The notes under the pieces: generated by a model
The model's input: the letters and a program-made list of their open reading frames with translations, nothing else
Databases searched by the model: none
What the model was told of the DNA's origin: nothing
Assembly (NCBI RefSeq): GCF_003752415.1
Contig: NZ_RKHG01000001.1
Coordinates: 930,001 to 994,000, forward strand
DNA from: Luteococcus japonicus
GTDB taxonomy: Bacteria > Actinomycetota > Actinomycetes > Propionibacteriales > Propionibacteriaceae
DNA length: 64,000 bases
Direction of reading: 5' to 3'
Translations under genes and position numbers: made by a program
Part shown: piece by piece, positions 21,662 through 27,401 of the stretch
How the letters are laid out: each line of letters starts with the position of its first letter
Numbering within the stretch: position 1 is the first letter of the stretch

Positions 21662-21705
21662 GGAGGCAAGACTATCGCTGTCAGCCTTGCCCCCATGACA
21701 CAGGA

Positions 21706-22839
21706 TCAGGCGTCGGGGGCGATCAGCTCCGGCAGCTTGGCGTCGAACTCGTCACGCAGGACGCGCGTGGGACGGATCCGGGACTTCGGGCGGGTGGACT
21801 CCTGCACCTGGACGCCCCACATCGCGGCGGCGTGGCGCTGCTTGGGGGTGCCATGGTGGCCGGTGCTGGCGAACTGGCAGTCACCGATGCCGTAGAAGAC
21901 CTTGCCGAAGGCGAGGATGCGCTTGGTCTGCATGCTCAGGCCCTTGGGGTGCGACGCGAAGTAGGCGGCCGACGCGTCGGCGTGCAGCTCGGTGCGACGC
22001 GTCCCCTCGGGCGTGGAGCTGGCCATGGTGTCGGGGGTGATCATCCCGATCTCCATCTGCACGTGGTGCGCGTACTCGTGGGCGAGCACCACCTGCGGCG
22101 CGACGTCACCGAAGCCCAGCTCGTCGTAGGCGCGCAGCAGGCCCTCGCCCATCACGATCCGGTCGACGATCTGCGGCTGCTGGCCGAAGGTGCTGTAGGC
22201 GAAGGCGTTGAAGGACAGCAGCGGGAAGTGGCCGCCCTCCAGGCCCTTGCTGGACGGGACATAGGACTTCACGAACTCGGCGAGCTCGCGGGAGGTTGCC
22301 GCGTCCAGGCCCAGTTCGGTGTAGGCGCGCACCATCCGCTCGACGTCGGTGTAGATGTCCGTGCTCATCGCCATCAGGGTCATGTCGGAGCCGTCGATGT
22401 CCCAGAAGCGCTGGCACTTGGTGAAGGTCTTGCGCAGGTCGTGGGCGTGCCGGGTGAGGGCGTAGGAGGCGCCGGTGACGTCGGTGGTGAGCATCGCGTC
22501 GACGGCGGGCAGGATGTCCAGCCCGGCCTCCTGGATCACCTGCCGGTCCTGCTCGCTCAGCCTGGCCATCTGGGCGGTCATCCAGACGTCGACGGCGTCA
22601 TCGGGGGTGCACTCGTACTGGGTGGGATCGATGGCACGGGTGAACGGACGGTTGAAGTGGTCCACCGCGTGCCTGGCCAGGAAGTCGTCGAAGAGCTGGT
22701 CGATGTTGGCCTGGGGCAGGGAGACGGGCGCCGCCTGGGCGTGCGGGACCGACAGGCCGAGGGCGAGTGCCCCGGCACCGGCACCGGCGCCGGCGAGCAG
22801 GCCACGGCGGGTGATCCGAGGGGTGGGTGTGGTGTGCAT
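21706..22839 (-). CDS. Tat-exported putative zinc metallopeptidase (paralogue 2)
   Basis: Predicted secreted metalloprotease, 377 residues. It has a twin-arginine signal ([12 protein letters not shown]), a hydrophobic core and an AQA cleavage site near residue 38. The zinc site is [10 protein letters not shown] (HExxH), with a downstream [11 protein letters not shown] segment likely giving the third ligand, as in the YpfJ-like neutral zinc peptidases. Cysteines in YECTP and GDCQF may form a disulfide. The ATG at 22839 has AAAGGAGA upstream. It lies directly downstream of a paralogue (22578-24047) sharing the [11 protein letters not shown] core, indicating tandem duplication. No substrate is known. 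Confidence 0.85.
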
Positions 22840-24047
22840 GACGGTTCTCCTTTGGGTGTGCTGTGGTGGGCTTGGAATGGTAAACTGGCGATCGCGTGCG
22901 GTGCGGAGGCCGACAGCAGGCCTGGCAGTGCGGTCTGGAAGGCGGAGCGGAATCCGGCCACCGGCATCACCGCCGTCTTCCCCGCGGCCTGCCGCTGGCC
23001 CCATGCGGCGGCGGCGCGACGCTGGGCGGGTGTGCCGTGGTGGCCCTGGCTGGAGACATTGCAGTCACCGATGCCGTGCACGACGTCGAGGACCTCGCGC
23101 TGCTGCGCCGCGCTCATCGCGCGCCCCTTGCGGTGGCTGGTGAAGTAGCTGGCCTGCGCATCGGCATGCAGCTCGGTCTTGCGGGTGCCCTGGGGTGTCG
23201 GTGCCTTCTTCGGGTCGATCATCCCCAACCGGAACTGCACCTGGTGGCCGAACTCATGGGCCAGCACCACCTGGGGTGCGACGTCACCGTGGCCCAAGGC
23301 GTCATAGGCCTGCAGCAGCCCCTTGCCCATCACGATCCGAGCCGGCGTCCCGGCCTGCGCGGGTGTGGCCATGGCATTGAAGGTGAGCAGCGCGTTGCGG
23401 CCGCGGTCCAACCCGGGGCTGGTGGCCACATAGCCCGCCAGCGCCTCACCGAGCACGCGGGAGACTTCCTTCGGCAGTCCGATGGCCTGGTAGGCCGCCT
23501 GGACCCGGCGCGGGTTCATCAGCATCTCGCCGGTCATGCCGCGCAGGCCGATCTGCTTGCCGTCGACCTTCCAGAAGACCTGCAACTGGGTGAAGGTGCT
23601 GTTCAGGACCTTCCCGTGCCCGGTGACCGAGACCGGGGCCTGCGAGGCGTGCTTGGCCTGCACCGCCTCCACCAGCGGCAGCATGTCCGCCAGGCTCAGG
23701 CCCAGCACCACCTGGTCGGTGAGGGTCAACCGCTTGGCCTGCTGCTGGGCGTAGCGGGTCACCTCGGTATCGGCCTCGCAGGAGGACGGTTCCTCGACGG
23801 CAGGACGCTCCGGCATCGGCAGGCCGCGCTCGGCGAGGTACGCACGCACTTTGGCCTCGACGCCCTGCCGGGCCAGGGCGGTGCGGATCTGCTGCAGGCG
23901 ACGCAGCTGGTCCTGGTCCAATTTCTGGACGCGTTGGGCGGGCTGGGCTGGGGCGGCGCTGGCCGCGGGCGCCGCCGCGCCCGCGACGCCCAGGGCCAGA
24001 CCGGCCGCAGACAGCACGGAAAGTGCTCGGATTCTGCTTACAGACAT
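22578..24047 (-). CDS. Secreted putative zinc metallopeptidase (paralogue 1) without its expected stop
   Basis: Paralogue of the following gene. It has a Sec-type signal ([20 protein letters not shown]) rather than Tat, a Pro/Gln-rich linker, the zinc motif [21 protein letters not shown], and the shared GHHGTP end. Homology to its neighbour finishes at about LPGLLSA (residue 375). No stop follows: the frame continues about 115 more codons to 22578, running 262 bp into the downstream gene in another phase. The extension is Pro/Ser/Arg-rich, typical of an out-of-frame reading. Either a stop codon was lost or an indel sits near 22920-23000. The ATG at 24047 has AGGAGAGGAAG upstream. Confidence 0.75.
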
Positions 24048-24114
24048 AGGTCTTCCTCTCCTGGGGGTGGCGCCAGTCTGCCTGCCCGAGGGTTCACCTC
24101 AGCCCACCGGCTAG

Positions 24115-24537
24115 CCAGGTCCATCGCGCCACCGACGGCGGGGATCGCGCCGGGCTTGCCGGTGTGCCAGTTGGCGAGGTCACCGTTGAAGGCCACCTGG
24201 TAGGCCCCCAGCACGCACACGTCGAGGTGCCCGCCGCGCATCATGGCGAAGGAGTCGGCGTGGTGGGAGTCGCTGGCACCCGGAAGTTCGGTGACGGGCA
24301 CCTTGCCGGCATTGGTCAGGTCAGCGTCGATCTGGTCCCCCACCGCGGCGGGCCCCATGCCGAGCATGCCGTTCTCGGTGTGCAGCACCACGCCCGCATC
24401 CGCCGCGATGTGGTCGGCGACGGTGGTCGGCTGCCCGTTGCCAGGTTCACGAAGGATCCCGGCCGGATGGCGGTGGCCACCAGGGCGGCCAGTTCCGGCT
24501 TGCCCAGCGGCTCACGGTCCAGGTTCTCGATGCTCAT
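24115..24537 (-). pseudogene. pcaJ: 3-oxoacid/3-oxoadipate CoA-transferase subunit B, frameshifted and truncated
   Basis: The start reads [19 protein letters not shown], then [16 protein letters not shown]. The frame breaks where NLG[11 protein letters not shown] is expected (24439-24443). One missing G restores the run [31 protein letters not shown] and [11 protein letters not shown] when allowed for. Similarity stops after VGGAMDLA at about 24118, so the C-terminal part is gone. The ATG overlaps the subunit A stop (ATGA), the normal operon arrangement. Role of the intact enzyme: CoA transfer to 3-oxoadipate or acetoacetate. Confidence 0.8.
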
Positions 24538-24650
24538 CGGGCACCCTCCACGGCGTAGGAACGAGCGTCGACGCGCACCACGCGGCCGACGAAGATGGAC
24601 GGCGTGACGACGTCGCCATCCTGCACACCCGCGACGGCCTCGTCGGTCGA
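24534..24650 (-). pseudogene. pcaI: 3' fragment of CoA-transferase subunit A
   Basis: About 38 codons remain, ending GDVVTPSIFVGRVVRV and a short tail before TGA at 24534. This matches the conserved C-terminus of CoA-transferase alpha subunits (VVTPGIFV). Everything upstream is missing and is replaced by the catA fragment in the opposite orientation. Confidence 0.65.
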
Positions 24651-24656
24651 CTCCCG

Positions 24657-25128
24657 TCTCCTACGACGAGTACAACGCCTTCAAGGCATGGCTGATCCAG
24701 GTGGGCGCCGACGGCGAATGGCCGCTCTTCCTGGACGTGTGGGTCGAGCATGCAGTCGAGGATGTCGCCACCGAGCACCGCGACGGCAGCAAGGGCTCCA
24801 TCGAGGGCCCCTACTACGTGCCGGACGCCCCGGTCTGCACCGACGGCCAGATCCCGATGCGCGAGGACGAGTCCGGCGACCGGATGATCTGGACCGGCAC
24901 CGTCACCAGCACCGACGGCAAGCCGCTGAGCGACGCCAAGGTCGAGCTGTGGCACGCCGACAGCCTGGGCTTCTACTCGCAGTTCGTCCCGGGCCAGCCC
25001 GAGTGGAACCTGCGCGGCACCTTCCCGGTGAACCAGGACGGCTCCTTCGAGATCCACACCACCAAGCCGACGCCGTACATGATCCCTACCGACGGCGCCT
25101 GCGGCAAGCTGATCGCCGCCGCCGGCCC
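24657..25128 (+). pseudogene. catA: Catechol 1,2-dioxygenase, both ends missing
   Basis: The open frame begins inside the gene at YDEYNAFKAWLIQVG and continues DGEWPLFLDVWVEHAVEDV, GSIEGPYYVPDAP (iron-ligand Tyr), AKVELWHADSLGFYSQF and LRGTFPVNQDGSFEIHT. It ends at KLIAAAG. The segment W-x-RPAHLH that supplies the two iron-ligand histidines is missing, so the product cannot be active. About 40 N-terminal residues are also missing. Divergent orientation from pcaI suggests one deletion removed both 5' ends. Confidence 0.85.
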
Positions 25129-25179
25129 CGGGCGAGACGGCCGAGGCCCTGCGATCCTTCGTCTGCTGACCGCCTGCCC

Positions 25180-26076
25180 TCACAGGTCGGCGGGCGTCCC
25201 CTGGTGGAAGCGCAGCCTCCAGCCCGACGGGGTACGCACCCACACCGAACTGCGCAAAGCGATGGCACCGCGGCCACGGGAACGCCAGCGCAGCAGGATG
25301 ACGTCGTCGGCCAACCGATCGGTGCCGATCACCTCGAGTGTCGTGCGATTGGTCAGCGGCTCGACGGAGGCCAGCATCCGCGCCCGGCTCCACAACTTCC
25401 CCGATGCTCCGATCTCGGTGTACTCCGGATGCAGCAGGGCCTCCACACGGCGACGGTCACTGCGCACGGCGTCGAGCAGCAGGGACTCCTCCAGTGCCAC
25501 CACGTCGTCCTCGTCCCGGGCGGCCGGCTCCTCGTCGAAGCTGAACAGGTCGATCTCCACGGGCTCTGGCGTTCTGGGCGCCACGTCCAGGCTGGTGGCC
25601 CCTTCCGCCCCAGCTCCCTGGAAGCCGGGACCCGCAGGCACTGCGGTGCCGTCGCGATAGGCCCGGGCCGCGGCCTGGGCCCGGGAATCGGCCGCCTCGT
25701 TCATGGCGTGGCCGGCATGGCCCTTGACCCATTCGAAGGTGACGGTGCGCCCCACGAGCTGCCGGTCGATCTCCTGGAGCAGTTCGACATTCATCACCGG
25801 CTTGCCGTCGGCCTTCTTCCACCCCTTGCGCTTCCAGCCCGGCATCCACTTGCTGACGGAATTGATCACGTACTGCGAGTCGCACAGGATGTGCAGCGGC
25901 TCCTCGGGAACGACGGCGGTCTGCTGCAGCAGGTTCAGCACCGCCATCAGCTCACCCATGTTGTTGGTTCCCCGGGGCCAGCCACCGGCGGCCCAACAGT
26001 TCTCGTCGATGAACCAGGCCCAACCGGCCGGGCCGGGATTGGACAGGGAGGAACCGTCGGCGGCAGCAGTGATCAC
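25180..26076 (-). CDS. RNase HI fused to an NTF2-like domain
   Basis: Residues 1-140 are ribonuclease HI, which cleaves RNA in RNA-DNA hybrids. The catalytic set is D7 (AADGSS), E42 (NNMGELMA), D66 (LCDSQYV), H120 (VKGHAGH) and D130 (NEAAD). An acidic linker (residues 150-190) leads to a C-terminal domain (about 190-298) with LLHPEYTEIGASGKLW and VWVRTPSGWRLRFHQGTP. That pattern matches SnoaL/DUF4440-type NTF2-like folds. The GTG start at 26076 is six bases from a CACAAT hexamer; the gene diverges from the LCP gene over 29 bp. The function of the added domain is unknown. Confidence 0.88.
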   Translation of the reverse strand: MITAAADGSSLSNPGPAGWAWFIDENCWAAGGWPRGTNNMGELMAVLNLLQQTAVVPEEPLHILCDSQYVINSVSKWMPGWKRKGWKKADGKPVMNVELLQEIDRQLVGRTVTFEWVKGHAGHAMNEAADSRAQAAARAYRDGTAVPAGPGFQGAGAEGATSLDVAPRTPEPVEIDLFSFDEEPAARDEDDVVALEESLLLDAVRSDRRRVEALLHPEYTEIGASGKLWSRARMLASVEPLTNRTTLEVIGTDRLADDVILLRWRSRGRGAIALRSSVWVRTPSGWRLRFHQGTPADL

Positions 26077-26105
26077 CGGCTCATTGTGCCGTAATCTCGA
26101 CTCCC
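26077..26105. promoter_or_regulatory. 29-bp divergent promoter region, RNase HI / LCP gene
   Basis: TAATCT (26092-26097) ends eight bases before the LCP ATG. On the other strand CACAAT (complement of 26083-26088) ends six bases before the RNase HI GTG. Neither gene has a Shine-Dalgarno sequence, so both transcripts look leaderless and their -10 elements nearly abut. Confidence 0.45.
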
Positions 26106-27401
26106 ATGAAGCATGTCGCCCCCGACGAGCCCACCGAGGCCGGCGCCCCTCCGCGGCGCGTCGAGCACCGCCATCCGCGCCTGCGCAAGCTCCTGGCCGC
26201 CCTGGTGGTCCTTGCCCTGCTCCTGGCAGCGGGTGGTTATGGCCTCTACCGGCACCTCAATGCGAACATCACGTCGATGGAGATCCCCTCTGATGTCCAG
26301 GGCGAGGCGCTGGAGGGGCTGCCCAAGGGCAAGGCCCAGAACATCCTGGTGATCGGCACCGACTCCCGGCAGAATGCGGCGGACTGCAAGCTCGGTGGCT
26401 CCTGCGGCGACGACAAGCTGGACGGCGACACCAATGCCGATGTGGAGATGCTGGTGCACATCTCGGCTGACCACGAGTCGATGACCGTGATGAGCATCCC
26501 GCGGGACACCATCCTCGACCTGCCGGCCTGCACCGGCAATGGCAAGACGCGTGAGGCAGGCACTCGCGGCCGGATCAACGGCTCCCTCAACTACGGCGTC
26601 GACTGCCAGCTGCGCACCGTGCACGAACTGACGGGTCTGACCATCAACCATTTCATGATGGTGGACTTCTCCGGTGTCGTGAGCCTGTCCGATGCCGTGG
26701 GCGGCGTCGACGTCTGCGTGGACGCCGACGTCTATGACACCTACTCGCACCTGAAGCTGGCCAAGGGAGAGCACACCCTGCAGGGAGTCGCGGCGCTGCA
26801 GTTCGTCCGGACCCGGCACGGTTTCGGCGACGGCTCGGACCTGGGCCGGACCATCGGCCAGCGGCTCTACCTGTCATCGCTGCAGCGCAAGCTGGAGAGC
26901 GCAGGAACCCTGCTGAACCCGCAGAAGGTCTATCGCCTGGCGGAGGCCGGCACCAAGGCACTCACCGTCGACTCGGGCCTGGACAGCGTGAGCACCCTCG
27001 CCCAGGTGGCGGCCACGGTGGGTGGCGTCCCGGCCTCCTCGACGGCCTTCGTCACCCTGCCGACGGTTCCTGACCCGGAGAATGTGAACACCGTCGTCCC
27101 GGCCGAGGGTGCACAGAAGCTCTTCGACAAGCTTGCTGCCGACGAGTCCTTGGTCAAGCCGTCCCCGAAGACGACGCCCAGCACAGCCTCGAGTGCAACG
27201 CCCGAGGCCACCAGCCAGAAGCCCTCCCCCTCGGCCAGCGCAACCGGCGACCCGGCCACCGACGGCAGTGCCCAGACCTCCGCGGAGACCACCGGCTGCG
27301 CCCAGGTCAGCACGCAGAAGACGGTGGAGATCAATGGAGTCCCGATGACCCCCTCGGAGGCCTATGCGGCCTCCCCCAGGATCAAGGACTCGGACGCCTG
27401 A
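26106..27401 (+). CDS. LytR-CpsA-Psr (LCP) family cell-wall glycopolymer ligase
   Basis: Membrane-anchored enzyme that transfers polyprenyl-linked glycopolymers to peptidoglycan. 431 residues: short cytoplasmic N-terminus, one transmembrane helix (about 26-47, LLAALVVLALLLAAGGYGLY), then the LCP domain with ILVIGTDSR, MTVMSIPRDT, RINGSLNYG and FVRTRHGFGDGSDLGRT. These Arg/Asp positions bind the pyrophosphate and Mg2+. A Pro/Ser/Thr-rich extracellular stretch (about 345-395) precedes a short C-terminal segment. Cysteine pairs (ADCKLGGSC) may form disulfides. A strong convergent terminator follows. Confidence 0.92.
   Translation: MKHVAPDEPTEAGAPPRRVEHRHPRLRKLLAALVVLALLLAAGGYGLYRHLNANITSMEIPSDVQGEALEGLPKGKAQNILVIGTDSRQNAADCKLGGSCGDDKLDGDTNADVEMLVHISADHESMTVMSIPRDTILDLPACTGNGKTREAGTRGRINGSLNYGVDCQLRTVHELTGLTINHFMMVDFSGVVSLSDAVGGVDVCVDADVYDTYSHLKLAKGEHTLQGVAALQFVRTRHGFGDGSDLGRTIGQRLYLSSLQRKLESAGTLLNPQKVYRLAEAGTKALTVDSGLDSVSTLAQVAATVGGVPASSTAFVTLPTVPDPENVNTVVPAEGAQKLFDKLAADESLVKPSPKTTPSTASSATPEATSQKPSPSASATGDPATDGSAQTSAETTGCAQVSTQKTVEINGVPMTPSEAYAASPRIKDSDA

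Follow-up and report, generated by a model that had tools for sequence, protein, structure and literature searches.

Divergent actinobacterial clusters of catechol and beta-ketoadipate genes, found in genomes of the same taxonomic order, are the closest described counterparts of the locus analyzed here. When 391 genomes of the order were searched, many of them from remote relatives, the pcaJ fragment of the locus was matched in 243 and its catA fragment in 130. In at least five of these genomes (G379, G409, G353, G323, and G358), pcaJ and catA are oriented divergently, as they are in the locus: one strand encodes pcaJ-pcaI-pcaF, the opposite strand encodes catR1-catR2-catB-catA-catC, and the divergent intergenic region is located between pcaF and catR1. 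The two LysR-like genes (catR1 and catR2) and catC were named from reading of the sequence and are presumably what their features indicate. In G379, the intact cluster spans 6.8 kb from pcaJ to catC; its catA scores above the TIGR02438 cut-off, and its pcaF and catB give strong matches to TIGR02430 and TIGR02534 that fall under those cut-offs and pass those of Pfam.

Other arrangements also occur. In G333 and G292, catR2-catB-catA-catC-pcaF-pcaI-pcaJ are all encoded on one strand; in the stretches read from six genomes (G324, G387, G411, G395, G005, and G077), cat genes are present without pcaIJ; and in those read from the same family as the locus (L180-L185), pcaIJ genes are present without a close catA. 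Of 80 catA loci retained from 118, none had pcaJ divergent from catA within the flanks read, which were short in some cases; the search of the order was the sole source of the divergent arrangement. As a separate observation, a catA in G382 (contig C1, L236:3162-4330) is directly adjoined, on the opposite strand, by an incomplete second copy with 58% identity across 134 residues.

The window, a 64,000-nucleotide stretch of the Luteococcus japonicus genome, contains cat/pca remnants at positions 24114-25126, with a possible extra scrap extending to 25180. The features of the locus and its flanks are as follows, with codons numbered on the reference locus L170.

22900-24047, minus strand: flanking putative neutral zinc metallopeptidase-like gene (scanned as 22578-24047; PF04228 at 20.4 bits, under the 23.2-bit cut-off)
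24114-24537, minus strand: pseudogene of pcaJ (subunit B of 3-oxoadipate CoA-transferase) with the first ~141 of ~220 codons
24534-24612, minus strand: C-terminal ~25 codons of pcaI and its stop, the TGA overlapping the pcaJ ATG at 24537-24534
24613-24655, minus strand: N-terminal scrap of pcaI (codons ~8-23) that joins the C-terminal ~25 codons in frame
24652-24658, no strand assigned: junction of pcaI codon ~8 with catA codon ~57; pcaF, catR1, catR2, and catB are missing (4.5-5.4 kb relative to three compact order-mates)
24656-25126, plus strand: catA pseudogene, 157 codons (~57-214 of 284), no stop
25127-25180, plus strand: possible degraded 3′ end of catA (suggestive)
25180-26076, minus strand: flanking rnhA, encoding RNase HI with a C-terminal DUF4440 domain, open throughout

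The pieces have the same order and strands as the clusters of the five order-mates, share about 79-81% DNA identity with them, and retain about 1 kb of the full pcaJ-pcaI-pcaF/catR1-catR2-catB-catA-catC arrangement. Over positions 24114-24612, DNA identity to intact pcaIJ is 80% (best E value 4e-128), and the catA fragment is 80-82% identical to its closest intact counterparts (best E value 6e-133), which rules out chance resemblance. The family assignments are as expected: PF01144 (CoA-transferase) matches the pcaJ/pcaI remnant with an E value of 1.5e-17, and PF00775 matches the catA fragment with an E value of 7e-32. The claim of the original prediction that this segment is the wreck of a catechol/beta-ketoadipate gene cluster is therefore confirmed, and the wreck was apparently left by several deletions. 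It is a well-resolved case of ordinary bacterial pseudogene decay, a common kind of gene loss.

The remnants of pcaJ and pcaI are each broken in more than one way. In pcaJ, a net loss of one base between 24442 and 24436 shifts the reading into another frame, and homology ends at 24114 in all pcaJ loci aligned save one (24113), in agreement with the frameshift and missing 3′ end proposed earlier; the predicted ATGA overlap of pcaI and pcaJ is likewise present. The earlier description of pcaI as a C-terminal fragment captured only part of what is left: the C-terminal piece is real, but codons ~8-23 survive as well, and the deletion is internal. Residues read from 24653 to ~24606 match intact pcaI codons ~8-23 and those following match codons ~206-231, corresponding to an in-frame internal deletion of ~550 bp (scaled on L170). 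A functional 3-oxoadipate CoA-transferase (PcaIJ) is thus missing from the locus, with pcaJ frameshifted and 3′-truncated and pcaI lacking its start and interior.

The catA remnant shares the catalytic-domain core of actinobacterial catechol 1,2-dioxygenases (TIGR02438/PF00775), including both tyrosine-ligand motifs, but lacks the N-terminal ~56 codons and the histidine-ligand segment of these enzymes. Its Dioxygenase_C domain is partial (122 of 182 profile positions, 1-122). Two tyrosines and two histidines are the iron ligands looked for; we take GPYYVP and PYMIPTDG to carry the tyrosines and WHxWRPAHLH the two histidines. The first two motifs are present and the third is absent from the fragment, as was originally predicted. 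In the catA loci aligned, homology ends at 25126, right before this segment, which is seen in L170, L171, and L179. Taken together, the remaining pieces of pcaJ, pcaI, and catA should make no functional enzyme, judging from these defects.

Whether catA has lost both ends, as first proposed, depends on the bases that follow: the 5′ part is gone, whereas a degraded 3′ end may be left. The 54 bp between 25126 and the rnhA stop at 25180 were aligned with 107 distinct catA 3′ ends. Among 1000 stretches of the window matched for composition, 2 equaled their mean score, 4 their top-ten score, and 34 their maximum score; the 54-base tail and the softer gap costs were picked after earlier tests had been seen. 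As a peptide, the tail reached a score matched by 1 of 400 controls, and against the single catA end of G137 (described below) it was equaled by 3 of 2000 and 5 of 2000. A 42-base tail compared as DNA with stiffer gaps gave no support for a catA 3′ end (46 of 200 controls), and in view of that first DNA test the resemblance is graded as suggestive. In 12 of 80 catA loci, tblastn alignments extend in frame through the tail, an observation given no evidential weight. As candidates for positions 25127-25168, the 3′ ends of catC, catB, and pcaF were at background (371, 211, and 219 of 400 controls, respectively), and that of pcaD likewise did not stand out from background (69 of 400 controls) in a weak comparison, using a small set of 19 pcaD sequences with several apparently misread ends. 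If the tail does belong to catA, that gene too lost an interior segment and kept its end.

At the junction of the two halves, catA homology starts at codon ~57 immediately after the N-terminal scrap of pcaI. By arithmetic on the aligned coordinates of the intact relatives, the homologous points lie 4.5 kb (G379), 5.4 kb (G409, G353), or about 15 kb (G323, G358) apart. The spacing in the three compact relatives suggests that one deletion took pcaF, both LysR regulators, catB, and the 5′ ends of pcaI and catA, which best explains the junction as aligned. The earlier proposal that a single deletion removed both starts is compatible with such an event, albeit one that was probably far larger than envisaged. 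The control region thought to have been shared by pcaI and catA is contradicted by the intact order-mates, in which the divergent region would lie between pcaF and catR1. Nor can one event account for the whole wreck. Sharp breaks in homology to relatives are located at 24114, ~24612, ~24655, and 25126, and these at least four breaks rule out a single deletion; beyond the junction, the pcaJ 3′ end, the pcaI interior, and the catA 3′ part represent at least three further structural breaks, in addition to the frameshift.

The very probable explanation is that an intact divergent cat/pca cluster once lay between rnhA and metG and was later eroded in place by several deletions. An ancestor would have carried pcaF-pcaI-pcaJ/catR1-catR2-catB-catA-catC in this slot, possibly in exactly the layout of the intact order-mates, and erosion would have begun once selection on the catechol branch ceased. 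One large deletion would have brought the pcaI 5′ end up against the mid-portion of catA. The pcaI interior, the iron-binding part of catA, and the pcaJ 3′ end with whatever lay past pcaJ would have gone in smaller deletions, and a one-base loss would have shifted the pcaJ frame. The order of these events is one that we infer.

Phylogenetic evidence bears on whether the two halves were ever neighbors in a cluster. A quick tree was built from 37 pcaJ sequences (support from SH-aLRT alone, without bootstrap; identical sequences removed and G358 not included). It places the window in a seven-member group whose support of 92 is under the 95 starred by the program. Four of the five divergent-cluster genomes are among the six other members, and two further members (G369 and G351) have no catB, catA, or catC in the 20 kb read. 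The position of the window in the catA tree is unsupported. The catA fragment is 79.4-80.7% identical to the five linked clusters, compared to 82.1% (L179), 81.3% (L178), and 81.0% (L177) for three stand-alone cat clusters and 74.2-78.1% for three others. Given the slightly nearer stand-alone genes and the unsupported catA placement, the two halves could have different histories: pcaIJ and catA may never have been cluster neighbors, being instead separate remnants that were rearranged into proximity or were captured as two foreign fragments. Family members with pcaIJ and no close catA in the stretches read are consistent with such a history, which nevertheless appears unlikely, as the identity gap amounts to about one standard error on 471 bp by our own estimate, the order and strands in the window fit the linked cluster of the five order-mates, and four of these share its group in the pcaJ tree.

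The chromosomal slot itself was compared across the family. In the window, the interval between rnhA and metG holds two metallopeptidase-like genes and the wreck. The rnhA product (RNase HI plus DUF4440) was matched in 171 of 197 family genomes, with the best matches covering almost the entire protein. The neighboring metallopeptidase-like frames at 22578-24047 and 21706-22839 resemble paralogs by eye, and the upstream frame overruns the downstream start by about 260 bp in another frame, as if its native stop had been lost. Among 20 family regions fetched around rnhA, nine (L215-L218, L221, L224, L228, L231, and L232; five genus codes) have rnhA linked to a metG of the same orientation, at distances ranging from 50 bp to 3.4 kb; in the remaining 11, metG was not within the fetched stretch. 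Six of the nine contain long frames in the slot, alike by eye in L215, L216, and L217 (one genus) and different in L221, L224, and L228. None of the nine has cat/pca genes between rnhA and metG, a result that fits two separately acquired remnants and also favors gain of an intact cluster in the window lineage followed by decay; loss of the cluster in the other lineages would be less economical. The genus-mate G001 (79% complete) gave no catA or pcaJ match and only chance-length matches to positions 21700-27400, and no genome close enough to show the state before the deletions was found.

Elsewhere in the genome (3.45 Mb, one contig, 99.96% complete), no functional copy was found at the thresholds used, with catB sought as DNA only. 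The wreck provides the sole matches to PF00775 (catA/pcaHG) and PF01144, and a search for PF02426 (muconolactone isomerase) gave no match. An 8-kb reference cluster searched as DNA against the rest of the genome gave only 15 short matches, the best of which (65 bp, E value 3e-8) lies in a thiolase gene; the thiolases of the genome reach only 39-42% identity to pcaF. As far as these searches reach, the ortho-cleavage route appears to be absent. The thiolase match at G000:C1:1675767-1676491 (L203, L204) consists of two overlapping pieces in different frames, possibly a frameshifted gene. A plasmid origin of the region was considered and rejected: 422 of the 72,556 plasmid records searched share a portion of it, and none covers 80% at one place. 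It is very improbable that the wreck is an assembly or sequencing artefact and that the true genome carries an intact cluster, given the single, nearly complete contig, four separate breaks plus a frameshift, and the lack of any other long stretch of cluster DNA.

Loss of constraint is hinted at by substitution patterns. Third codon positions account for 42% of catA differences from 43 relatives of like divergence, compared to 50% (s.d. 6) in 2193 intact pairs, a weak signal about 1.4 s.d. below the latter. The end branches of the window are 0.23 for pcaJ (median 0.085) and 0.20 for catA (median 0.057), although they could also be explained by sparse sampling of the genus. Both features are expected if constraint was lost, perhaps fairly recently. 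The catA frame is open for 157 codons and departs from only 2 of 60 near-invariant positions; as many changes are found in 8 of 114 intact sequences, a comparison that is not fully independent, as a few loci overlap. These features would suit the survival of a fragment, either the catA core or the short in-frame fusion within pcaI, as a translated product with a new role. Such retention is hardly credible, with no catA start in its native position, the histidine-ligand segment gone, the codon-position signal somewhat weakened, and long open frames common on both strands of this G+C-rich DNA, according to the ORF list.

A second broken catA was found in another genus of the same family (G137:C297:423-814, L235); across 77 bp its DNA is 93.5% identical to that of the window. 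In contrast to the catA of the window, this copy has lost its middle and retains the 3′ end and the histidine segment, and it adjoins a pcaD-like frame that follows catA. None of ten flanking proteins from the window matched its 4.4-kb contig. Since the genome is 72% complete and in about 480 contigs, the break is possibly an assembly fault. A broader scenario is considered doubtful: the slot between rnhA and metG would be a minor site of turnover in this family, with accessory genes arriving and decaying there, catA would have been broken independently in the two genera, and loss of the catechol branch would be driven by a cost that it repeatedly imposes.

Decay in place of an intact divergent cluster remains the favored account of the locus. 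No such wreck was found in the titles and opening abstract lines of the literature consulted. The locus clearly illustrates the dismantling of a divergent catabolic cluster: its break points can be located to a precision of a few bases, and the genes that were lost can be named. It also carries a caution for annotation: matches to PF00775 and PF01144 at this locus are no ground for crediting the organism with catechol ortho-cleavage.
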